The translations under genes were made by a program, and so were the position numbers. A stretch of DNA of 64,000 nt from Chthoniobacterales bacterium (GTDB lineage: Bacteria; Verrucomicrobiota; Verrucomicrobiia; Chthoniobacterales; JACTMZ01): the NCBI GenBank assembly GCA_018883245.1, contig VEQL01000001.1, forward strand, positions 1 through 64,000, in the 5' to 3' direction. The number at the start of each line of letters is the position of its first letter. Within the stretch, counting starts at the first letter, position 1. The notes beneath the pieces are model-generated. The model had not been told where the DNA came from. It made no database searches and saw only the letters and a list, made by a program, of their open reading frames with translations. Shown here piece by piece: positions 1 to 15,151 of this stretch.

Positions 1-2
1 TG

Positions 3-227
3 GTGCGGGAGGAATTCGTATTTTGGCCTTTCACGGAAATCATCCGCGGCGAAGGGCACTACGTGGTGCCGGACTATTCCTTCGGCAAGCGCAGCATGTG
101 GCGCATCACCCTGCCGGACGGCAACACGATCACGATCGCACAGAACCATGTCGAATCCGGCGGCCTGCAAGCGAAGCTAACCGACGACGCCGGCGCTCCC
201 TCCGTGACAGAAGAGCCAGCCGCCTAA
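3..227 (+). CDS. Hypothetical protein, C-terminal part (cut by window edge)
   Basis: An open frame enters from the left edge and stops with TAA at 225-227, giving 74 visible residues. The visible part is mostly beta-type, with the stretch YVVPDYSFGKRSMWRITLPDG, then a polar, acidic tail ending TEEPAA. A GTG at position 3 could be read as a start, but there is no visible upstream sequence, so the true start is probably outside the window. I do not recognise a family. It points toward the minus-strand PEP-CTERM remnant that follows and shares its 3' side with that remnant's terminator. Confidence 0.55.
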   Translation: MREEFVFWPFTEIIRGEGHYVVPDYSFGKRSMWRITLPDGNTITIAQNHVESGGLQAKLTDDAGAPSVTEEPAA

Positions 228-234
228 AGACAAA

Positions 235-256
235 ACCCGCACGTTGCCGCGCGGGT
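235..256 (-). terminator. Rho-independent terminator, copy A of a repeated PEP-CTERM 3' block
   Basis: The stem ACCCGCACG at 235-243 pairs with CGCGCGGGT at 248-256, with one A-C mismatch and a four-base TTGC loop. Reading leftward on the minus strand it is followed by a T-rich run (complement of gacaaaa at 229-235). The same hairpin recurs at 1477-1502, 3012-3037, 6270-6295 and 10255-10280, each time just downstream of a PEP-CTERM tail. Confidence 0.7.
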
Positions 257-284
257 GTCGCGAAGTGAGCAGCGCTTTGGTCGC

Positions 285-401
285 TTAAGAAACCTTCGCG
301 CGCTTGCGCCAGCGGGCGAAGGCCGCACCGCCGGCGAGTAACGCCGCCGCGACCCAGGTGCCGGGTTCGGGGACGGCGGCGGCAAAGCGATCGTCATAGC
401 T
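285..401 (-). pseudogene. Orphan PEP-CTERM sorting tail (gene body missing)
   Basis: On the minus strand an open stretch of 38 codons encodes SYDDRFAAAVPEPGTW followed by a hydrophobic segment and the basic end RWRKRAKVS, then TAA at 285-287. This is a complete PEP-CTERM signal: VPEP motif, about 17 hydrophobic residues and an Arg/Lys-rich end, as needed for exosortase processing. The frame closes at a TAG at 402-404 and has no start codon, signal peptide or ectodomain. It is therefore the 3' remnant of a surface-protein gene, or a transferred tail cassette. Its DNA continues into terminator copy A and resembles the 3' ends of the genes ending at 6322, 9339 and 10306. Confidence 0.75.
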
Positions 402-503
402 CTAGACCAAAGACAATCCGTCATGCCGCTGAAACCGTGACCGGCCCCGCCCTTCCCCACACCCGCGCAGCCACGCACGTTCCCGTGACATGGTCATTGA
501 CAC

Positions 504-1115
504 TTGCGGCACGCCGTCGATGTTCATTTTGTGTCTTCCGAGCGAGCACCGATCATCTACCTGATCGCCGGTCCTAACGGTGCGGGCAAAACGACTTTTG
601 CCAAGGAGTTTCTGCCCTCCGCGCATGTTGTCGAGTTCCTCAACGCAGACCTCCTCGCGGCTGGACTCTCTCCTCTGCGCCCAAAGGCGATGTCTGTCCG
701 CTCAGCGCGGCTTATTCTTGCGCGATGGCGTGAGTTGGTCGCCATGCGCCGTGACTTTGCCTTCGAAAGCACGCTGAGCGGCCGCACCTACGCATCCATG
801 CTTATGGAGGCGAAAACCGCCGGTTACCGCATCCGCCTTGCCTACCTTTGGCTGCCGCACGTGCGGATCTCGCTGCGCCGTGTGAAACAAAGAGTCCTCA
901 CTGGCGGCCACGATGTTCCGGAGCGTGATGTGCGGCGGAGATTCATTCCGAGTCTCGTCAATTTCTTCCACAAATACCTCCCGCTCGCCGATGAAGCTCT
1001 CCTCTTCGATGCCGCATCGCATCCTCCACGACTGATTGCCCGCTGGGCAGGGGACCAAAAAGAGGTTAAAGATGAGGGGATCTATGAAGGCGTCGTTCGC
1101 CAAGCCAAAATCTGA
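504..1115 (+). CDS. Zeta-toxin-like P-loop kinase (COG4185-type)
   Basis: The 203-residue product has a Walker A motif GPNGAGKTT at about residues 23-31 directly after a hydrophobic beta strand, and the segment FAFESTLSGRTY at about 85-96, which is typical of the predicted ABC-type ATPase/zeta-toxin group (COG4185). Zeta toxins phosphorylate UDP-N-acetylglucosamine or nucleotides; the substrate here is unknown. The longest frame opens with TTG at 504, right after an in-frame TGA at 498-500. A GTG at 531 is an alternative, and neither has a clear ribosome binding site. The 3' end overlaps a small basic gene that starts at 1072. This suggests a two-gene toxin-antitoxin unit in which the kinase comes first, the reverse of the classical epsilon-zeta order. 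Confidence 0.75.
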   Translation: MRHAVDVHFVSSERAPIIYLIAGPNGAGKTTFAKEFLPSAHVVEFLNADLLAAGLSPLRPKAMSVRSARLILARWRELVAMRRDFAFESTLSGRTYASMLMEAKTAGYRIRLAYLWLPHVRISLRRVKQRVLTGGHDVPERDVRRRFIPSLVNFFHKYLPLADEALLFDAASHPPRLIARWAGDQKEVKDEGIYEGVVRQAKI

Positions 1116-1245
1116 ATCCCGCGCCAAGCGTTCGTCCTCGTCGGACTTCACGCGCAAAGCCGTTGCCGCCATGCGGCGAGCGCAGAAAGTCGCCGAACGT
1201 GAAAATGCGCGCTTCGGGCTCAAGTTGGTCGTCCAGGAATGCTAA
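1072..1245 (+). CDS. Small basic protein overlapping the zeta-like kinase, putative antitoxin
   Basis: This 57-residue protein starts at ATG 1072, 44 bases inside the kinase gene. An AGAGG stretch at about 1061-1065 serves as a plausible ribosome binding site. The N-terminal half is rich in Ser, Lys and Arg, and the C-terminal half is a probable amphipathic helix (FTRKAVAAMRRAQKVAER) followed by the sequence FGLKLVVQEC. I do not recognise a named family. The overlap implies translational coupling to the kinase, and by position it is the obvious antitoxin candidate. Its high positive charge could also mean nucleic-acid binding. Confidence 0.6.
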   Translation: MRGSMKASFAKPKSESRAKRSSSSDFTRKAVAAMRRAQKVAERENARFGLKLVVQEC

Positions 1246-1288
1246 TACCAAAGGCGAAAGGTTTTTTACTTTTCACCACCTTCGGTAG

Positions 1289-1378
1289 GGACGGCTGGCC
1301 CAGCCGTCCGCACGCCAAGCAGAGAGATGCAGCAGTCCGGTGGCCTCCTGCTCGTAGAGCCTACGGCTCGGAGAGGCC
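1289..1378. repeat. Two adjacent hairpin repeats in a non-coding stretch
   Basis: Between 1246 and 1470 there is no convincing gene. At 1289-1309 lies a near-perfect palindrome, GGACGGCTGG against CCAGCCGTCC. At 1342-1378 a nested hairpin has outer arms GGCCTC/GAGGCC and inner arms GAGCC/GGCTC. Both lack a following T-run on either strand, so they look like REP-type intergenic elements and not terminators. They sit between the zeta-type module and an orphan PEP-CTERM tail. Confidence 0.5.
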
Positions 1379-1476
1379 AGCGGACCCCACCGCGAGAGAA
1401 TGCTGTTAAGTTAACGTTCTTGGGGACGTTGTTATGAGTGCAGCTTCGTTCGCTGAGCCGACCCCTCGACAAAAAA

Positions 1477-1502
1477 ACACCCACACGTTGCCGCGCGGGT
1501 GT
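1477..1502 (-). terminator. Rho-independent terminator, copy B
   Basis: ACACCCACACG at 1477-1487 pairs with CGCGCGGGTGT at 1492-1502 around a TTGC loop, with a seven-base A run at 1471-1477 that becomes a U-tract on the minus strand. It no longer serves an intact gene: only a stub of a PEP-CTERM tail lies upstream of it. Confidence 0.65.
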
Positions 1503-1528
1503 CGCGAAGTGAGCAGCGCTTTGGTCGC

Positions 1529-1573
1529 TCAAGAAGCTTTCGCGCGTTTGCGCCAGCGCATGAAGCCTGCCGC
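1529..1573 (-). pseudogene. Second orphan PEP-CTERM tail stub
   Basis: The minus strand encodes AAGFMRWRKRAKAS and then TGA at 1529-1531. This is the last part of a PEP-CTERM tail (end of the hydrophobic segment plus the basic cluster), without the VPEP motif or any protein upstream. The homology to other tails ends at about 1573. The stub and the adjoining copy B terminator therefore form a fragment of the same 3' block seen behind intact genes. Confidence 0.7.
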
Positions 1574-1776
1574 AAAAGAGCACGCTAAACGGCAACCATC
1601 GTCATGCCGAAGAAAATGTCCCTCAGGCTGAAGGCTGCCGACTGACCTCTGAAAACTCCGCGCCTTGCGCGTTTCGATACGATCCAGATTTGGAAACCGC
1701 GCTTGGTCACGAGGTCAGAGGCTGGAAGGGGGAATCCACGTTTGCGATACCTCCCCTCGCACGCTAATCTTCCCTC

Positions 1777-1992
1777 ATGAGCACCTTGGCCGAAATCGAA
1801 CAGGCCATTGAAAAATTGCCGAACGAGCAGCTTTTTCAACTGACGGACTGGATCTCCGAGCGCTTTTCCGACGCGTGGGATCGTCAGATCGAGCAGGATA
1901 TTGTCGCGGGTAAACTCGACGACTTGGCCGCGGAAGCGATCGCCGAACATCGTGCCGGCCAGAGCTTTCCCATGCCGGCCGATAAAGAGTAA
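1777..1992 (+). CDS. RelB-type antitoxin (addiction-module component family)
   Basis: A 71-residue acidic helical protein beginning MSTLAEIEQAIEKLPNEQLF. The pattern of a short N-terminal helix with the sequence EKLPxEQLxxLxxWI and a C-terminal part ending in D/E-rich residues is that of small addiction-module antitoxins encoded directly upstream of RelE/ParE toxins. A remnant of such a toxin follows in another frame (1988-2242). The partner is broken, so this gene is now an orphan antitoxin. The start ATG 1777 is the only suitable one, and no strong ribosome binding site is visible. Confidence 0.7.
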   Translation: MSTLAEIEQAIEKLPNEQLFQLTDWISERFSDAWDRQIEQDIVAGKLDDLAAEAIAEHRAGQSFPMPADKE

Positions 1993-2242
1993 AGCGGGCC
2001 AGAAGTTCTGGAAAAATTTCAGGCAACTTCCGGTGCCCATTCAGAGGTTGGCCGCCAAGCAATAAAAGCTGTGGGCCAAAGATCCCGGACACCCTTCGCT
2101 GCAATTCAAGAAAGTGCAGAACTATTGGTCTTGCCGGGTCACGGATTCTTATCGCGCGCTCACCGTGGTTGATGGTGATACGGCGCTCTGGTTCTGGATT
2201 GGCTCGCACACCGCGTATGAGCGACTAATCAAGCGGCGCTGA
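1988..2242 (+). pseudogene. RelE/ParE-type toxin remnant with internal stop
   Basis: In the frame ending with TGA at 2240-2242, the translation contains KFWKNFRQLP, then HPSLQFKKVQNYWSCRV, SYRAL, TALWFWIGSHTAYERLI and KRR. These are hallmarks of a RelE/ParE-like mRNA interferase (HPSLxFK, YWSxRV, YRAL, WFWIGxHxxY). A TAA at 2063-2065 interrupts it at a place where related toxins commonly have Tyr, which one base change (TAC or TAT to TAA) would explain. No ATG, GTG or TTG start lies in frame at the expected position behind the antitoxin. I read it as an inactivated toxin. A sequencing error could explain the stop but not the missing start. Confidence 0.7.
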
Positions 2243-2300
2243 AGCCGCCCCGACTAACGCGTTCCTGCACGCCCACATCCTTGCGCTGACGCGCGCTTGA

Positions 2301-2705
2301 TCAGTCCTCGGCCTGACTGCACTCCCAAAACGCGCGGGGAGTCATGATCGCTGCGCCCTTGGAACTTTTCAGCACCAGCAAGTCCTTGTCGCCTGTCACG
2401 ATAGCTTGTGCAGCTCCCGGCGAAACCAACCCAAGCACGATGAGGTCCTTCGGATCGCGACACGTCTTGGGATCAAGTTTCTCGGGCCTCACGAGATCGA
2501 CGTGTTGTCGCAGGAACTTGACGTATTCTGCAACCACGCGGGACGGAACCTTGAGCTTGGTCGTGAGTTTGGTCTCCACCTCATCGAGAATTCCCTCGCC
2601 CGCAATCAGGCTGTGTCGCTCAAGGCAAAGTTCTACGATCGCTTCGCACAGACCGCGGGAGGCAACCGCTGCGATGAATACGTTCGAATCAAGGATGACC
2701 CTCAT
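2301..2705 (-). CDS. PIN-domain toxin (COG1569-type)
   Basis: The 134-residue product begins MRVILDSNVFIAA, the first acidic motif of PIN nucleases, and has later acidic positions in RDPKDL and VTGDKDLL that complete the predicted metal site. This matches the COG1569 group of putative toxin components, which cut RNA. Its start overlaps the stop of the ribbon-helix-helix gene at 2702-2917 by four bases (ATGA), so the antitoxin is translated first. Length and motifs are complete, and the module appears intact. Confidence 0.8.
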   Translation of the reverse strand: MRVILDSNVFIAAVASRGLCEAIVELCLERHSLIAGEGILDEVETKLTTKLKVPSRVVAEYVKFLRQHVDLVRPEKLDPKTCRDPKDLIVLGLVSPGAAQAIVTGDKDLLVLKSSKGAAIMTPRAFWECSQAED

Positions 2706-2917
2706 GAGAGAGCCTTGAACACATCCTCGTCACTTAGGAGCCCCTGGGCCTCGGCAAACGGCAGAATTTTTTTCCGGACCGCGCGAAATTTCTCCACGGC
2801 CACGTAGCGGCGCAATGATTCACGGACCATGTCGCTCACGGCCTTGTTCTCCCTGCGACTGAGCTTGTCGAGGTCGCCCTTCAGTGTGTCGGGTAGGCGG
2901 ATGGTCAAAGTTGTCAT
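2702..2917 (-). CDS. Ribbon-helix-helix antitoxin
   Basis: A 71-residue protein whose N-terminus TTLTIRLPDTLKGDLDKLS is a ribbon-helix-helix DNA-binding motif of the CopG/Arc type, followed by SDMVRESLRRYV and an extended C-terminal part that would wrap the toxin. It lies immediately upstream of, and overlaps, the PIN toxin gene. Such antitoxins usually repress their own promoter, which would lie in 2918-3000. The pair is the only one of the three canonical types in this 6-kb area that looks fully intact. Confidence 0.8.
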   Translation of the reverse strand: MTTLTIRLPDTLKGDLDKLSRRENKAVSDMVRESLRRYVAVEKFRAVRKKILPFAEAQGLLSDEDVFKALS

Positions 2918-3011
2918 AACGTGTAAGACACCGTAGTGCGTCTTGGCGAAGGAGTCAACCCCACGCTAACGGCGACTCAGGGCGCGTCACAAATCCCACA
3001 GCAAAAACAAA

Positions 3012-3037
3012 ACACCCGCACGTTTCCGTGCAGGTGT
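3012..3037 (-). terminator. Rho-independent terminator, copy C, of a PEP-CTERM operon
   Basis: ACACCCGCACG at 3012-3022 pairs with CGTGCAGGTGT at 3027-3037 (one mismatch), loop TTTC. On the minus strand it runs into TTTTGTTTTTG. It ends the three-gene PEP-CTERM operon that starts at 5417. Confidence 0.8.
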
Positions 3038-3062
3038 CGCGAAGTGAGCAGCGCTTTGTCGC

Positions 3063-3788
3063 TTAAGAAACTCTCGCGCGTCTGCGCCAGCGAACAAATC
3101 CCGCGGTCAGCGCGAGCAAGGACGACGCGGCCCATGTGGCGGGCTCGGGGACGGCGGCGGTGGCGTTGATAGACCAATAAACGTTCGAGGCTTGCGTGGT
3201 GTCCTGGATGTCGCCGCTGGCGCCGTAATCGGGGAACATCAGGCCGAGGTTGGTGCCGCCATCGATCCACCCTTGGATCAGCGAGGGCGAGAAATCCCAT
3301 ACCACCGTGTCACCCGAAATGGTCCCCGTGGAAATGGGTGAACTCGCCCAGTTGGTGCCCGCCGCGCCGCCATAATTGAAGTTGTTCCATGTGACCGTCG
3401 CGGGGTTGTAAGCGGTCAGAACTTCATAGGCGCCCTTGGCTCCCAACGAAATATAAGGACCATAACTGTCCACGTTCGTGCTGGAACCGACGATGAGTTG
3501 CACCGAGTTGATCGTGTAGTTCGCGCCCAGAGCGCCCACCAAAGCGTTTTCGAAATCACTGCCCGGGGTGTAGATCATAGAGCGCTGGTAGTTGTAATTG
3601 GGCGCAGGATTGTAATGAGTGCTGAAATAGTCGTTCAGGAAAACGGTATCTTCGAACGGATACCAGACGTAGCTGATGATCCGGTTCACATACGTCGGAT
3701 TCATGACGATAAGTTCGGCCCGCGAGGAGACCGCCCCGAGAAGAAGACATGCCCACACCAAGAAAAAATTGCGGAGGTGACAGAGCAT
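3063..3788 (-). CDS. PEP-CTERM surface protein with a DNRLRE-like domain
   Basis: The 241-residue product starts at ATG 3786-3788, with a signal peptide (NFFLVWACLLLGAVSSRA), and ends with AAVPEPATW, a hydrophobic stretch and RWRRRARVS. The ectodomain contains ATVTWNNFNYG, VVWDFSPSLIQGWIDGG and TNLGLMFPDYG, the signature of DNRLRE/CBM96-like beta-sandwich domains found in secreted wall- or polysaccharide-binding proteins. It is expected to be exported by Sec and processed at the PEP motif by an exosortase, none of which is encoded in this window. The start lies one base from the stop of the upstream gene, so it is translated as the last cistron of a three-gene operon. Its tail DNA is nearly identical over about 40 bases to that of the gene ending at 4653. 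Confidence 0.8.
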   Translation of the reverse strand: MLCHLRNFFLVWACLLLGAVSSRAELIVMNPTYVNRIISYVWYPFEDTVFLNDYFSTHYNPAPNYNYQRSMIYTPGSDFENALVGALGANYTINSVQLIVGSSTNVDSYGPYISLGAKGAYEVLTAYNPATVTWNNFNYGGAAGTNWASSPISTGTISGDTVVWDFSPSLIQGWIDGGTNLGLMFPDYGASGDIQDTTQASNVYWSINATAAVPEPATWAASSLLALTAGFVRWRRRARVS

Positions 3789-3789
3789 T

Positions 3790-4647
3790 TTACGAAATTT
3801 TCGCCCGTCTGTTCCAGCGAACGTAACCCGCCGCACCGAGGAGCATCGCCGCAGCGCCCCATGTGCCCGGCTCGGGGACAGAGCCTGCACCGGGATCCTG
3901 GAGAAAAGTGATTGCATCTGCACTCGTGGAGGCCATGACGAGGTTATCGTAGGACTGCACGCCAAATTCCCCAGCCAATCGGAGCGAGCGGATGGCCTGG
4001 CTCGAGGTGTTGCCGAGGTCGAACCCGTAAACCACCGCGTTGGACTGCGAGACACCCTGGAAAAGGGGGGACGTGAGATCGGACTGCACCCAGAGGTCCG
4101 CCGTGTCATAGACACCGCTGGCACTGTTGTCGTAGACATGGGCGAGGACGGCGACCTGCTGTCCGTTGGTGAGCGCAAACGAGTTTGTCGCCCATCCGCT
4201 CCAGTCCGAGTTTATCAGCGTTACGTTCGGCTCGGCGGATGCCACTTGATAGGACCCAACCTGCCCGAACCAAGGACCGGTGTATTGGACTTCAAGATTG
4301 TTCGTTCCGCCCATGAGACCGACGCCGCCCAACCACGGTGTGCCGGAGTCGTTGCGGAGCAGAAATCCCAACCACACGCTGGGGTTGACCGAGGCTGCCG
4401 CGGGCATGACCAGCGTGGCCGGATAATTATAAGAGGACAGGTAGGAGCCCATTGACGTGCCTCCGACAACGAAGGGAGCCGCAGCCTCGAGCGTCGCGCC
4501 GACCGATGCGGGAGGAGCGTTCAATTGCGAAGTCCAACCGCTCGTGCTGTCAAAGCTGCTGCTGTAAAAAATAATTCCCCCGAAAGTGGTTTGCGCGAGC
4601 AGCAAACACGCGAGAAATACGCATGACTTCGACGCCGCATTTTGCAT
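3790..4647 (-). CDS. PEP-CTERM surface protein
   Basis: The 285-residue product starts at ATG 4645-4647, has a signal peptide (SCVFLACLLLAQTTFG) and ends in SVPEPGTWGAAAMLLG followed by RWNRRAKIS. The ectodomain (FYSSSFDSTSGWTSQLNAPP at the start, later WLGFLLRNDSG and SYDNLVMAST) reads like a concanavalin-type jelly roll of the kind seen in other PEP-CTERM proteins, but I cannot name a family with confidence. It is the middle gene of the operon, five bases after the upstream stop and one base before the next start. The tail has Asn in place of the usual Arg in RWRKR. Confidence 0.75.
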   Translation of the reverse strand: MQNAASKSCVFLACLLLAQTTFGGIIFYSSSFDSTSGWTSQLNAPPASVGATLEAAAPFVVGGTSMGSYLSSYNYPATLVMPAAASVNPSVWLGFLLRNDSGTPWLGGVGLMGGTNNLEVQYTGPWFGQVGSYQVASAEPNVTLINSDWSGWATNSFALTNGQQVAVLAHVYDNSASGVYDTADLWVQSDLTSPLFQGVSQSNAVVYGFDLGNTSSQAIRSLRLAGEFGVQSYDNLVMASTSADAITFLQDPGAGSVPEPGTWGAAAMLLGAAGYVRWNRRAKIS

Positions 4648-4652
4648 AGCAA

Positions 4653-5417
4653 TCAAATGCGCTTGCGCCAGCGAACAAATCCCGCGGTCAGCGCGAGCAA
4701 GGACGCTGCGGCCCAACTGCCGGGCTCGGGAACAACACCGCCGGTGATCGGGCCGATGCTGTTGATCGCGTTCGCCGGATAACTCGGCGCGTTCGTCGAA
4801 AGACCGAAGTAGATGCTGTCGATGGCGAAATCGTTCCCGCCTTCGGCGGAGACCGTGTTGCGCAGACGGAAGGAAATCGTGGTCGGCGCGGACAGGAAAT
4901 ATCCGTCGCGATAAGTCAGATACCAAATGTCGATGGAATTCGTAGGGATAGTGACGGAGGTGGTGAGTTGTTGCCACGCACCCGAGTTGTTCAGGCTCAT
5001 CTCGAAGGCCAATTGCGGCGGCGCGGCGGGATAGACGCTGGCGATATAGGCTTGGAAGCGGTAATAGACCGGCGCATTGGTCGTGCTCACGGTGATGTCG
5101 CCCGGATTGACCGTGATCGTCTGCATCCAAGGCGAAGCGTTGGTGTCGGTCGATCCGTTGGCGGCAAGATAGTTTGTGCCGCTCTGCGCGGAAAGACTGC
5201 CCGCCCCGGCCCAGATGGAATGCACCTGATTCAGGCTCTGGATGACGCTGTATTCGCCCGCATTCATGAGACCAGGCGAGTTGGGGACTTTGTAGGTGTA
5301 GTCGCTGGTGAAGCCGGTATTCCCCGACTCGAAGCTGCCGTTGACGATGAGATTGGCGTGGCCCACAGCGAGAGTAGAGAGGAGCCAAACGGCGGCGGAG
5401 AACACGCCAAAGCGCAT
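4653..5417 (-). CDS. PEP-CTERM surface protein, ectodomain duplicated at 14254-15030
   Basis: The 254-residue product has a signal peptide (MRFGVFSAAVWLLSTLAVGH), an ectodomain that opens NLIVNGSFESGNTGF (carbohydrate-binding-like beta sandwich) and a tail VVPEPGSWAAASLL...RWRKRI. The 614 bases at 4726-5339 are identical by eye to 14336-14949, while the signal peptide and the tail differ from the paralog. The tail instead resembles that of the gene at 3063-3788. It is the first gene of the operon, and no Shine-Dalgarno sequence precedes the ATG. A promoter-like pair lies so close that the transcript could be leaderless. It probably binds a surface glycan, but this is only inferred from fold-like features. 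Confidence 0.8.
   Translation of the reverse strand: MRFGVFSAAVWLLSTLAVGHANLIVNGSFESGNTGFTSDYTYKVPNSPGLMNAGEYSVIQSLNQVHSIWAGAGSLSAQSGTNYLAANGSTDTNASPWMQTITVNPGDITVSTTNAPVYYRFQAYIASVYPAAPPQLAFEMSLNNSGAWQQLTTSVTIPTNSIDIWYLTYRDGYFLSAPTTISFRLRNTVSAEGGNDFAIDSIYFGLSTNAPSYPANAINSIGPITGGVVPEPGSWAAASLLALTAGFVRWRKRI
4726..5339. repeat. 614-bp block identical to 14336-14949
   Basis: Line-by-line comparison shows no difference between 4726-5339 and 14336-14949 (constant offset of 9610). The block starts just inside the PEP motif codons and ends just inside the mature N-terminus, so it covers the ectodomain only. Sequence outside the block diverges at once on both sides. Confidence 0.9.
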
Positions 5418-6264: not shown

Positions 6265-6269
6265 ACAAA

Positions 6270-6295
6270 ACAACCGCACGTTTCCGCGCGGGTGT
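6270..6295 (-). terminator. Rho-independent terminator, copy D
   Basis: ACAACCGCACG at 6270-6280 pairs with CGCGCGGGTGT at 6285-6295, loop TTTC, with mismatches. It lies 26 bases beyond the stop of the PEP-CTERM gene at 6322 and is followed by TTTTGTTC on the minus strand. Confidence 0.7.
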
Positions 6296-6321
6296 CGTGA
6301 AGTGAAGCGGCGCTTGGATGA

Positions 6322-7014
6322 CTACGAAACTTTGGCGCGTTTGCGCCAGCGCATGAACGCCGCGCCACCGACGAGCAGCGCCGCCGCGGCCCATGTGCCG
6401 GGTTCGGGGATCACTGCAGCCGGCGTGTATTCGTAAGTGAGGTTGATGGTCCCTCCTGCCAGGACTCCAGCAGTATCCGTATTAAAAGCCGTGCCGCTGA
6501 CGGCGAGACTTACCACACGCAAGAGGCTGCTATTAAAGGTTCCGCCGCCGATCGCGCTGTAGTAAGCAGCATTGGCAAGTTGATCACTGCTGAAACTGGA
6601 CTCGTTGACACCGGCACCACTTAATAGAGTGAAGGTTTGCAAGGTGTCGGGGGCTATGGTTTGCCCCGAGGTAGAGACTGGTGAAGTGCTCAGCGGGTCG
6701 ATCAGTGAGCCATTGATGCCGGTCGGCGCGCCCACTCCCGAAAAGGTCAGGCGTATGCGTCCACGAGAATTTAGAACCAGGGTCGCCGGAGCCTCGAGAT
6801 CGAGGTTATCAACATCGTAGGAACCGCTGAGAACCCCCGTTGCTTCGAGTGTGATCGCTGTGAGTGTTCCAAGGTTCAGGTCAAATTTGTTCCAAGTAAG
6901 GAGGGCCGCCGTCGAACCCACGTTGCTGTAATTTTGCGTCTGCAAAACGATCGCAGAGTGGGCACTGACAACGGAAAGCATTGCAGCGGCGGCGAGGGCA
7001 AAGGCTTTTTTCAT
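6322..7014 (-). CDS. PEP-CTERM protein, choice-of-anchor E type
   Basis: The 230-residue protein has a signal peptide (MKKAFALAAAAMLSVVSAHS) and a tail AAVIPEPGTWAAAALL...RWRKRAKVS. The middle part, with LLTWNKFDLNLGTLTAITLE near the start and INLTYEYTP near the end, fits the choice-of-anchor E domain found in proteins with different C-terminal anchors. It is exported and presumably processed by an exosortase encoded elsewhere. It is monocistronic: a promoter-like pair lies at 7036-7063 and terminator copy D follows. Ile replaces Val before the PEP motif, a conservative change. Confidence 0.8.
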   Translation of the reverse strand: MKKAFALAAAAMLSVVSAHSAIVLQTQNYSNVGSTAALLTWNKFDLNLGTLTAITLEATGVLSGSYDVDNLDLEAPATLVLNSRGRIRLTFSGVGAPTGINGSLIDPLSTSPVSTSGQTIAPDTLQTFTLLSGAGVNESSFSSDQLANAAYYSAIGGGTFNSSLLRVVSLAVSGTAFNTDTAGVLAGGTINLTYEYTPAAVIPEPGTWAAAALLVGGAAFMRWRKRAKVS

Positions 7015-9338: not shown

Positions 9339-10028
9339 TCAGGAAACCTTCGCGCGCTTGCGCCAGCGGGTGAAGGACGCACCCCCAGCAAGCAACGCCG
9401 CTGCAGCCCACGTGCCGGGTTCAGGGACGGCAGCGGGCGCAGAAGTGATCTCGAGGTATGTCTGTTCGGGCAGGACGAATCCACTATAGCCGAAGGTGTA
9501 GCCGGTTCCCGTGGCGGCACCGCCGATGTTGAAGAAGCCGCTGCCCCAAGCCGTTTGCAGATCGGACAGACCGGAGACGTTGAGTTCGATGATCATGTAG
9601 TTGCCGTTGTCCGCCGTGGAATATCCCGTCGAGCCGTAGGAAGTGCCGCTACCGAGGTCTGAAAAGACGCCCACACCCGGGGTAGTATTGCCGGAATTCA
9701 GGGTGGCCTGGCTCGCAGGGCTGACATCGTAGATGGTGAAAGTGCCACTGCCGGTGACGCCATCGAGTTCGTTATGAAGATAAAGTTTTGCCGAGGTGAT
9801 GGTGGTTGGACCTTGACTGGCGAGATTAAATCCAAACCAGTTGTTGTAACTGCCTTGCTCCGCTTTAAAATTATTTTGCTGATACGCACCGTTTCCGATG
9901 CCATTGCTCTCAACATTGCCGCGGTAGGTTACCGGAATAATAAGGGCGGCTTGCAGCGGGAGGGCCATTGCAACCAAGGCGAGAGTCAGCGTGAGGATAT
10001 TTCGGTGGAGAGACGTGCACGTGTTCAT
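9339..10028 (-). CDS. PEP-CTERM surface protein
   Basis: The 229-residue product starts at ATG 10026-10028, preceded by GAGGGG as a possible ribosome binding site. The signal peptide is NILTLTLALVAMALPLQAA. The ectodomain includes WFGFNLASQGPTTITSAKLY, the type of strand pair seen in DNRLRE-like domains (residues joining with SGTFTIYDVSP). The tail is AAVPEPGTWAAAALL...RWRKRAKVS. Unlike its neighbours it has no terminator of the repeated type: 9226-9338 holds only the weak inverted sequence GATT/AATC and separates it from the TPR gene, which may be co-transcribed. Confidence 0.8.
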   Translation of the reverse strand: MNTCTSLHRNILTLTLALVAMALPLQAALIIPVTYRGNVESNGIGNGAYQQNNFKAEQGSYNNWFGFNLASQGPTTITSAKLYLHNELDGVTGSGTFTIYDVSPASQATLNSGNTTPGVGVFSDLGSGTSYGSTGYSTADNGNYMIIELNVSGLSDLQTAWGSGFFNIGGAATGTGYTFGYSGFVLPEQTYLEITSAPAAVPEPGTWAAAALLAGGASFTRWRKRAKVS

Positions 10029-10254
10029 GAATCGAATTTCCCCTCGCAGCACGTGGAACGACAATGGAAATGTGACGAATCCGTAGAATAGCGTGACGAA
10101 ACGGCTGGGCGCGGGGAGCACTGGTGACCCCCGCAGCTTTTCACTCAAGCGTCAAACTCAAGTCTCCGCCCTCTCTTTCGCATTCAACTCGCCTTCTATC
10201 CTCACCGTGCAACCGGTGGCCCGCGTTTTTTGACTCGCGCCTGCCAAGAACAAA

Positions 10255-10280
10255 ACACCCGCACGTTTCCGCGCGGGTGT
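10255..10280 (-). terminator. Rho-independent terminator, copy E
   Basis: ACACCCGCACG at 10255-10265 pairs with CGCGCGGGTGT at 10270-10280, loop TTTC, followed on the minus strand by TTTTGTTC. It lies 25 bases beyond the stop of the gene at 10306. Positions 10029-10254 hold no gene; a promoter for the gene at 9339 should be there but I see no strong match. Confidence 0.8.
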
Positions 10281-10305
10281 CGTGAAGCGAGCGGCGCTTT
10301 GTCGC

Positions 10306-11199
10306 TTAAGAAACTTTCGCGCGCTTGCGCCACCTCATGAAGCCTGCGCCGCCAGCGAGCAAAGCCGCCGCGGCCCACGTGCCGGGTTCGGGCACCGCGG
10401 CTGGACTGGAAGCAAGACCCACTGCACCGGAGAAACCCGAGCTAAACTCGGTCGGCAATCCGGTGATCGTTCCCATCAGGGACAGTGAAGCATCGGACAA
10501 GTTGACCTGATACAGACGATTTTCGTTGAGCAAGTAGGAGTTCACTCCGGAACTAAAGAGGGTGTTCCACCCGTTCTCGTCATAATTTGTCCCCGCGAAA
10601 TCACCGACCGGCGTGTCCGTTCCGCCGGCCGTGATACGGTAAAGCGAACTGGGATAAGAGGAGGCAAAGTAAAAATTTCCGTCGGAGGCGTAGGCCAGAC
10701 CGCCACCGAACTGCGAGTAAAGCGAGTTAACAACCGGCGCAGTGCTGGTGGTCGAGCCTGTCGAGGAATCGAGCGTATACCAGTCGGTGCTATACGCTCC
10801 GTAGAGATTGCCCGAGTTGTCGAAGGACATACCGAAGAGTGTGTCCATGGCCCCGAGGCTGGAGCCGCCGACGACGCCACTGGTGCTGACCGTGCGGTAT
10901 TCGTTGAAGAAGTATTGCACATACATCTGCGAAGTGACCGGGTTGAGGGCGAGATTGGCCAAAGGCTCGGACGAGGCGCTGCCCAAACTGGTCCAAGCAT
11001 ATTGGTAAGAGCCTGGTGATCCGGTCGGGCTGCCGAGGTCGAAGACTCCGAATTGGTAGCCGCTGAAGGGCGGACCTTCCGCGTAGCTGAGTCTCGCAAC
11101 CGCGTAAATCGGGGTGACGATGGACGCACGGAGCGAAGTGCCCAGCGCCAGAGTAACAAAACAAACGACGGCAAGGATCTGGAGGATTTTTGTTTTCAT
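10306..11199 (-). CDS. PEP-CTERM protein with beta-propeller-like repeats
   Basis: The 297-residue product starts at ATG 11197-11199 (MKTKILQILAVVCFVTLALG, a signal peptide). An in-frame ATG 45 bases upstream would add a charged, unlikely leader. The ectodomain has repeated short blocks such as FGMSFDNSGNLYGAYS, GGLAYASDGNFYFASS and LYRIT, which resemble NHL/SMP-30-like propeller blades with the pattern GLAYxxDGxxY. The tail is AAVPEPGTWAAAALL...RWRKRAKVS, followed by terminator copy E. The role is probably surface binding; no enzyme motif was seen. Confidence 0.8.
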   Translation of the reverse strand: MKTKILQILAVVCFVTLALGTSLRASIVTPIYAVARLSYAEGPPFSGYQFGVFDLGSPTGSPGSYQYAWTSLGSASSEPLANLALNPVTSQMYVQYFFNEYRTVSTSGVVGGSSLGAMDTLFGMSFDNSGNLYGAYSTDWYTLDSSTGSTTSTAPVVNSLYSQFGGGLAYASDGNFYFASSYPSSLYRITAGGTDTPVGDFAGTNYDENGWNTLFSSGVNSYLLNENRLYQVNLSDASLSLMGTITGLPTEFSSGFSGAVGLASSPAAVPEPGTWAAAALLAGGAGFMRWRKRAKVS

Positions 11200-14253: not shown

Positions 14254-15030
14254 TCAGGACAGCTTGGCGCGTTTCCGCCAGCGGATGTAGCCCGCCGTTC
14301 CGGCGAGCAGCGCCGCCGCGGCCCATGTGCCGGGTTCGGGAACAACACCGCCGGTGATCGGGCCGATGCTGTTGATCGCGTTCGCCGGATAACTCGGCGC
14401 GTTCGTCGAAAGACCGAAGTAGATGCTGTCGATGGCGAAATCGTTCCCGCCTTCGGCGGAGACCGTGTTGCGCAGACGGAAGGAAATCGTGGTCGGCGCG
14501 GACAGGAAATATCCGTCGCGATAAGTCAGATACCAAATGTCGATGGAATTCGTAGGGATAGTGACGGAGGTGGTGAGTTGTTGCCACGCACCCGAGTTGT
14601 TCAGGCTCATCTCGAAGGCCAATTGCGGCGGCGCGGCGGGATAGACGCTGGCGATATAGGCTTGGAAGCGGTAATAGACCGGCGCATTGGTCGTGCTCAC
14701 GGTGATGTCGCCCGGATTGACCGTGATCGTCTGCATCCAAGGCGAAGCGTTGGTGTCGGTCGATCCGTTGGCGGCAAGATAGTTTGTGCCGCTCTGCGCG
14801 GAAAGACTGCCCGCCCCGGCCCAGATGGAATGCACCTGATTCAGGCTCTGGATGACGCTGTATTCGCCCGCATTCATGAGACCAGGCGAGTTGGGGACTT
14901 TGTAGGTGTAGTCGCTGGTGAAGCCGGTATTCCCCGACTCGAAGCTGCCATTGACGATGAGGTTGGCCAAGCCGGTGTGCGCAACGACGCTCACCGTGAC
15001 GAGCGCGAGTAGAAATTTGGCGGTATTCAT
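14254..15030 (-). CDS. PEP-CTERM surface protein, ectodomain identical to the gene at 4653-5417
   Basis: The 258-residue protein starts at ATG 15028-15030 with the signal peptide MNTAKFLLALVTVSVVAH and ends VVPEPGTWAAAALLAG...RWRKRAKLS. Between the two ends its sequence is the same as that of the gene at 4653-5417 at DNA level (614 bases). The signal peptides and the last 25 residues differ. The tail DNA is of the common AAAALLAG type, unlike the ALTAGF type of the other copy. The gene appears monocistronic. Upstream, 15031-15151 includes a short imperfect palindrome CCCACTATAGGGT at about 15092-15104 that could be a regulator site. Confidence 0.8.
   Translation of the reverse strand: MNTAKFLLALVTVSVVAHTGLANLIVNGSFESGNTGFTSDYTYKVPNSPGLMNAGEYSVIQSLNQVHSIWAGAGSLSAQSGTNYLAANGSTDTNASPWMQTITVNPGDITVSTTNAPVYYRFQAYIASVYPAAPPQLAFEMSLNNSGAWQQLTTSVTIPTNSIDIWYLTYRDGYFLSAPTTISFRLRNTVSAEGGNDFAIDSIYFGLSTNAPSYPANAINSIGPITGGVVPEPGTWAAAALLAGTAGYIRWRKRAKLS
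14336..14949. repeat. 614-bp block identical to 4726-5339
   Basis: Second copy of the ectodomain block, same orientation, offset 9610 bases. The first differing bases are T for C in the PEP motif region on the left and A for G at 14950 on the right. Confidence 0.9.
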
Positions 15031-15151
15031 CGAAACAAGACTCGGGTCGGAGCCGTGAGTGCAATTTACGTCCTTGGGAGTGACTCCACAATACCCACTA
15101 TAGGGTAAAATCCACCGGCAGCCTGATTCGTAAAATTACAAGCCTTACAGC

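Follow-up and report, generated by a model that had tools for sequence, protein, structure and literature searches.

Two genes encoding PEP-CTERM proteins, designated A and B, share an ectodomain block of 614 bases without a single difference, whereas their two ends differ. Recent ectopic gene conversion between paralogues is the best-supported reading of this identical middle and these different ends, and we assign it a probability of about 0.6 on the basis of the sequence comparisons reported below. Both genes are located in the window, i.e., the whole stretch of 64,000 nucleotides that was analyzed, which opens contig C1 of the assembly (Table 1). Base-by-base alignment of the two copies revealed 614/614 equal bases, with a difference at the first base beyond either border. 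The sequence-only reading had claimed that the identity extends to all third codon positions, and this was confirmed, since none of the ~145 synonymous sites of the block was changed (95% upper bound of the divergence, 0.5%). The block is also the longest exact repeat in the 277,806 bases of the genome that were compared, including the surroundings of ~40 PEP-CTERM tails. The next-longest exact repeats, two in number, spanned 127 bases each and were located at contig ends. A chance match was ruled out by the complete identity of the copies and by the lack of any comparable repeat in this set.

Table 1. Coordinates of the genes, blocks, flanks, and repeats considered in this analysis (window positions unless another sequence is named)
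Feature	Position	Strand	Remarks
Gene A, PEP-CTERM protein, 254 aa	4653..5417	-	Open reading frame; signal peptide MRFGVFSAAVWLLSTLAVGHA; truncated tail ...RWRKRI*
Gene B, PEP-CTERM protein, 258 aa	14254..15030	-	Open reading frame; signal peptide MNTAKFLLALVTVSVVAHTGLA; tail ...RWRKRAKLS*
Ectodomain block, copy A	4726..5339	-	614/614 identity
Ectodomain block, copy B	14336..14949	-	614/614 identity
Tail A	4653..4733	-	8/75 differences to gene3 tail, 19/75 to tail B, 15/75 to tail C
N-terminal flank, 18 bases, homologous but diverged	5340..5357	-	GCCAAyCTCATCGTCAAy, codons ANLIVN; 2 silent differences
gene2, PEP-CTERM protein, next gene downstream of A	3790..4641	-	Homologue after copy C on C69, dS 0.69
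gene3, PEP-CTERM protein, ectodomain unrelated, tail near tail A	3063..3740	-	Missing from C69 version
Stretch colinear with contig C69 (L090 1397-5645)	1..5273	.	Exact 127-mer at 1-127, exact 77-mer at 5197-5273
Tail-terminator repeat, window	215-305, 1476-1549, 3003-3080, 6265-6342, 10254-10326		
Tail-terminator repeat, L090	2409-2496, 3178-3248, 4083-4155		Further matches on C4, C34, C62

Genes A and B are both complete reading frames, in which a signal-peptide-like start (read by eye from the translations) is followed by the ectodomain and then by a PEP-CTERM tail. Gene B, located 3' of hflX, matched PF07589 in the genome scan with 22.2 bits, above the cut-off. Gene A scored 14.0 bits against the PEP-CTERM Pfam profile, under the 20.7-bit cut-off, and its C terminus has the same layout as that of B, comprising the PEP motif, a hydrophobic helix (residues 232-251 in the predicted model), and a basic end. 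Three PF09721 matches above the cut-off revealed exosortases in the genome. A and B are best explained as paralogous exosortase-sorted secreted proteins. The neighbors of hflX are different in the sister species, indicating that the PEP-CTERM array beside this gene is specific to the present genome among those checked. Synteny with the sister species was uninformative as a test of the conversion, because other genes follow hflX there and the ectodomain is missing; it was absent from all of the ten sister species examined, and no outgroup genome carries gene B. A plasmid search gave no match.

The ends of the two genes had been described as strongly different. This holds for the signal peptides and the upstream DNA, which are unrelated, but the sequences that directly adjoin the block are homologous on both sides. 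The tail of A and its counterpart in B (positions 14254-14343) have 56/75 bases in common and differ at 19/75, a distance usual for the tails of this genome (median identity, 0.75). At the other end, the block begins within the codons ANLIVN-GSFE. The flank of 18 bases found there (positions 14950-14967 in B) was recovered by a DNA search as a match of 93% over 28 bases, part of the block included, and the relatedness of A and B ceases past this flank. No match was found in the genus for the leader of B or for its upstream region. The contrast between the unchanged tract and its diverged flanks was significant on the tail side (Fisher p, ~5e-20) and on the short N-terminal side (8e-4). Ordinary whole-gene duplication, which the sequence-only reading had dismissed on the grounds that it would carry the ends along, was ruled out by the unrelated leaders and upstream DNA and by tails at paralogue distance. 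Gene conversion typically leaves an unchanged tract bordered at either end by homologous sequence that has diverged, as seen here, with a short flank at the N-terminal side, and the proposal that a very recent event of this type fits better than duplication was supported by the 0/614 tract between these flanks. The tail of A is closer to that of gene3, with which it shares a 42-base exact run. A swap of tails between A and gene3 was nonetheless ruled out as the recent cause of the right border of the block, since these tails differ at 8/75 positions versus 0/614 in the block; any such exchange would be older than the block event.

According to the gene conversion reading, homologous recombination, presumably of the RecA type, would have copied the ectodomain of one paralogue onto the other. 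The tract would have halted where similarity fails, namely, at the PEP motif on the tail side and, on the N-terminal side, 18 bases inward of the junction with the signal peptide. It is this loss of similarity between A and B that makes the ends of the block fall at these two elements. The earlier notion of a swap bounded by the signal peptide and the PEP motif is accurate as a description of the geometry, but module-swapping machinery is not needed, since homologous recombination gives the same borders. The donor was probably A and the recipient B, the reverse direction being less likely. Synonymous divergence between the ectodomain of A and a third copy, designated C and carried by contig C69 (dS, 0.79 outside 77 shared bases), is similar to that between gene2 and gene2C, its homologue on the same contig (dS, 0.69). 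Thus, the ectodomain of A appears to be at its native site, and B would be the recipient. As a result, two promoters would drive expression of one ectodomain, joined in each case to a different leader and anchor.

The unrelated leaders and upstream DNA and the small size of the homologous flank on one side, just 18 bases, would also be expected if only the ectodomain had been duplicated, i.e., if a fragment of A had been joined at ANLIVN and the PEP motif into an unrelated PEP-CTERM gene, thereby replacing an unrelated ectodomain. ANLIVN and the tail are present in other paralogues, such as the copy on contig C4. The C4 copy is, however, the only other PEP-CTERM gene of the genome in which an ANLIVNG start was seen, and its ectodomain belongs to the same family. 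This favors a recipient that contained a related ectodomain beforehand, and we regard the capture of a fragment by an unrelated gene as improbable.

Gene conversion between A and B is not the only exchange suggested by the ectodomains of PEP-CTERM proteins. Copies A and B share a 77-base exact tract with copy C within a pair displaying 84% identity, a run that was equaled in 0/2000 permutations. A 71-base exact tract (C1:11556-11626 versus C3:111423-111493) in two PEP-CTERM ectodomains displaying 82% identity (P=0.001) is probably another conversion tract. In the sister species G003, a 77-base exact tract was observed in a pair displaying 73% identity, as a run considered without permutation. 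The borders of these additional tracts are located inside the ectodomains or just before the tail, which favors ordinary patchy conversion among paralogues.

Two further copies of the ectodomain are located outside the window and were thus beyond the view of the sequence-only reading. Copy C displays 84% DNA identity to A and B and, like A, has gene2 (here a homologue) as its downstream neighbor. The fourth copy, on contig C4, is distant (54% protein identity). The first 127 bases of contig C1 are exactly those of C69 at positions 1397-1523, and the final 77 bases of C69, within the ectodomain, are identical to A and B. C69 can be aligned colinearly with C1:1-5273 between these matches, at 73-95% identity and with different inserted genes. 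The two stretches (window 1-5273 and L090 1397-5645) therefore appear as diverged 4-5 kb versions, both with PEP-CTERM and toxin-antitoxin-like genes and only one with gene3. No second copy of C69:1-1396 was found in the genome. As the simplest reading, we slightly favor the view that C69 represents a second haplotype of the left 5.3 kb; copies A and C would then be alleles that share one signal peptide. Somewhat less likely, C69 carries a tandem paralogue and the contigs in between are missing. The high synonymous divergence is somewhat against simple strain alleles, as import of a segment would be needed. It is also conceivable, but in our estimation unlikely, that the A locus is hypervariable, comprising within one population two haplotypes of a PEP-CTERM/toxin-antitoxin island of 4-5 kb between the same flanks, and that copying between A, B, and C spreads ectodomains. 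If true, recombination would be driving the diversification of exosortase-sorted proteins in an environmental bacterium, with leaders and anchors remaining fixed.

The contig ends described above raise the question of the assembly, since A and B were both assembled on contig C1 and the repeat coincides with a junction of the assembly graph. The exact overlaps of 127, 127, and 77 bases presumably reflect the k-mer sizes used by a de Bruijn assembler of short reads. Contig C17, like C1, begins with an exact 127-base overlap to another place, and C69 stops inside the ectodomain with exactly the 77 bases common to A and B. An assembly artifact had been named as an alternative by the sequence-only reading. 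In such an artifact, A and B would be only near-identical and merged, or the starts and tails of A, B, and C would be wrongly joined at the repeat node. The assembly joins three 3' ends (A, B, and C) to only two 5' ends, and two direct copies would form a simple graph loop that the assembler could walk without long inserts. However, contig C1 (166,959 bases) runs far past B, and leader and tail are undamaged and in frame in both genes. A k-mer size of 127 would moreover prevent the merging of many differences, implying that the copies are nearly identical even so. We consider an origin of the pattern in the assembly unlikely, but it is the main rival of gene conversion. Assemblers of the metaSPAdes type collapse strain differences and disconnect the edges of rare strains (PMC8021871). 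Together with the graph junctions at the repeat, this behavior leaves some doubt about whether the copies are perfectly identical and about how their starts connect to their tails, and a few differences may have been merged during short-read assembly. As a difference of several percent should not be mergeable at k=127, recent copying stays the best reading even if a few differences had been lost. The case illustrates that an apparent module swap may be located right at a junction of a short-read assembly.

The sequence-only reading had gone further and regarded the locus as a shuffling system for surface proteins, in which ectodomain cassettes would be moved among genes whose leader and anchor ends stay fixed. 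Certain features could be accommodated by such a system. The tails form a repeated module with a terminator that also occurs without an ectodomain, and, if C69 is an allele, one signal peptide fronts two versions of the ectodomain (84% identity) in a single sample. The comparison of the PEP-CTERM loci argues against it. Among the ~40 PEP-CTERM loci of the genome, A and B are the sole pair that combines identical ectodomains with different ends, and no such pair was found around the 39 PEP-CTERM loci of the sister species G003, in which the closest duplicate (C34, 90%) brings its flanks along. The divergence of C69 extends beyond the ectodomain over the entire 4-5 kb. A and B are both complete and neither resembles a silent cassette; the genome contains orphan tails, but orphan ectodomains were not found. 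In analyses directed at other features, neither a recombinase gene nor a recombination site came to light. Dedicated shuffling is thus very improbable, and this part of the claim is not supported.

Cassette-based antigenic variation is known from pilE/pilS of Neisseria and vlsE of Borrelia. As proposed for A and B, the middle of a surface gene is exchanged there by recombination between conserved ends. Unlike these cassettes, both A and B are full-length genes that have their own starts and leaders rather than members of a silent promoterless library. At the A locus, at most two versions were observed, if C69 is an allele, compared with the series of variants that such systems have at a single expression site. 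A closer likeness is provided by Helicobacter pylori babA/babB and sabA/sabB, in which ectopic gene conversion occurs between paralogous outer membrane protein genes, a tract of one surface gene replacing its counterpart in a paralogue elsewhere by homologous recombination, thereby generating chimeras (PMC3960876). In contrast to the H. pylori genes, A and B encode exosortase-sorted proteins known from one genome, and the homogenized part is the whole ectodomain. The event is thus most likely a known kind of conversion between paralogues, occurring here in an environmental PEP-CTERM family.

PEP-CTERM/exosortase families comprise many paralogues, with a modular tail of ~24 residues, diverse ectodomains, and rapid evolution (Haft et al. 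2006, PMC1569441). The same features of paralogy, modular tails, and diverse ectodomains were found in the present genome, whereas frequent duplication and loss were reported for these families (PMC1569441) and conversion is proposed here. PEP-CTERM proteins are among the fastest-evolving sets of their genomes, and their diversification has so far been ascribed to duplication and loss. The clean, very recent, ectodomain-wide tract of A and B provides a concrete and testable case of recombination diversifying these proteins. Our literature search found no paper joining PEP-CTERM proteins with gene conversion, a weak sign of novelty given that most subscription papers were outside its scope. Since the two 614-base copies are in direct orientation and 9.6 kb apart, we predict that the intervening PEP-CTERM genes should be losable.

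The predicted model of the protein encoded by gene A (mean pLDDT, 75) comprises a β-sandwich up to residue 207, followed by the C-terminal helix. Averaged by block, the ectodomain mostly has pLDDT values of 71-94, with one block at 56. Foldseek returned CBM22, CBM16, and CBM4 as the best matches of the model (E, ~1e-6 to 1e-4), including PDB entries 4xup, 2zez, and 2y6j, with TM-scores by target length of ~0.55-0.69. At the sequence level, 22/40 members of the ectodomain alignment matched PF02018 (CBM4/9) with E values up to 0.01, gene A itself having no Pfam match. The ectodomain is thus predicted to have a CBM4/16/22-like fold, sharing the β-sandwich of carbohydrate-binding modules of families 4/9, 16, and 22, and to be a putative carbohydrate binder. 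In other phyla, relatives of the ectodomain carry PEP-CTERM tails, and they are also embedded in long Bacteroidetes proteins that lack such a tail, indicating that bacteria combine this domain with various anchors. Distant relatives (27-33% identity) are also encoded by the viral contigs L150, L151, and L152.

Several additional repeats and motifs were detected in the course of the analysis. The dispersed repeat formed by the end of the PEP-CTERM tail and a terminator-like hairpin has 13 matches in the genome, some of which are not preceded by a PEP-CTERM gene. A conserved folded RNA was sought in the repeated terminator, and only the terminator-like hairpin was found (z, -0.84). The motif TACCCT-N5-GGGTA, a possible operator, occurs at nine places in the genome (0 in the control), including window positions 15092-15107 and contigs C4, C16, C19, and C22. 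At 4/9 places it is located upstream of PEP-CTERM genes, gene B among them. Pairs of the boxes TTCGTCAC and TTCGTCCC, 21 bases apart, were identified by eye upstream of PEP-CTERM genes at window position 9360, C3:109419, and C3:103759. Finally, a serine-hydrolase-like PEP-CTERM gene on contig C17 has a partial second copy (L122, C17:1-500, versus L123, C17:16623-17120; 96% identity over 497 bases), the shorter copy lacking the N-terminal half and being located at the contig end.
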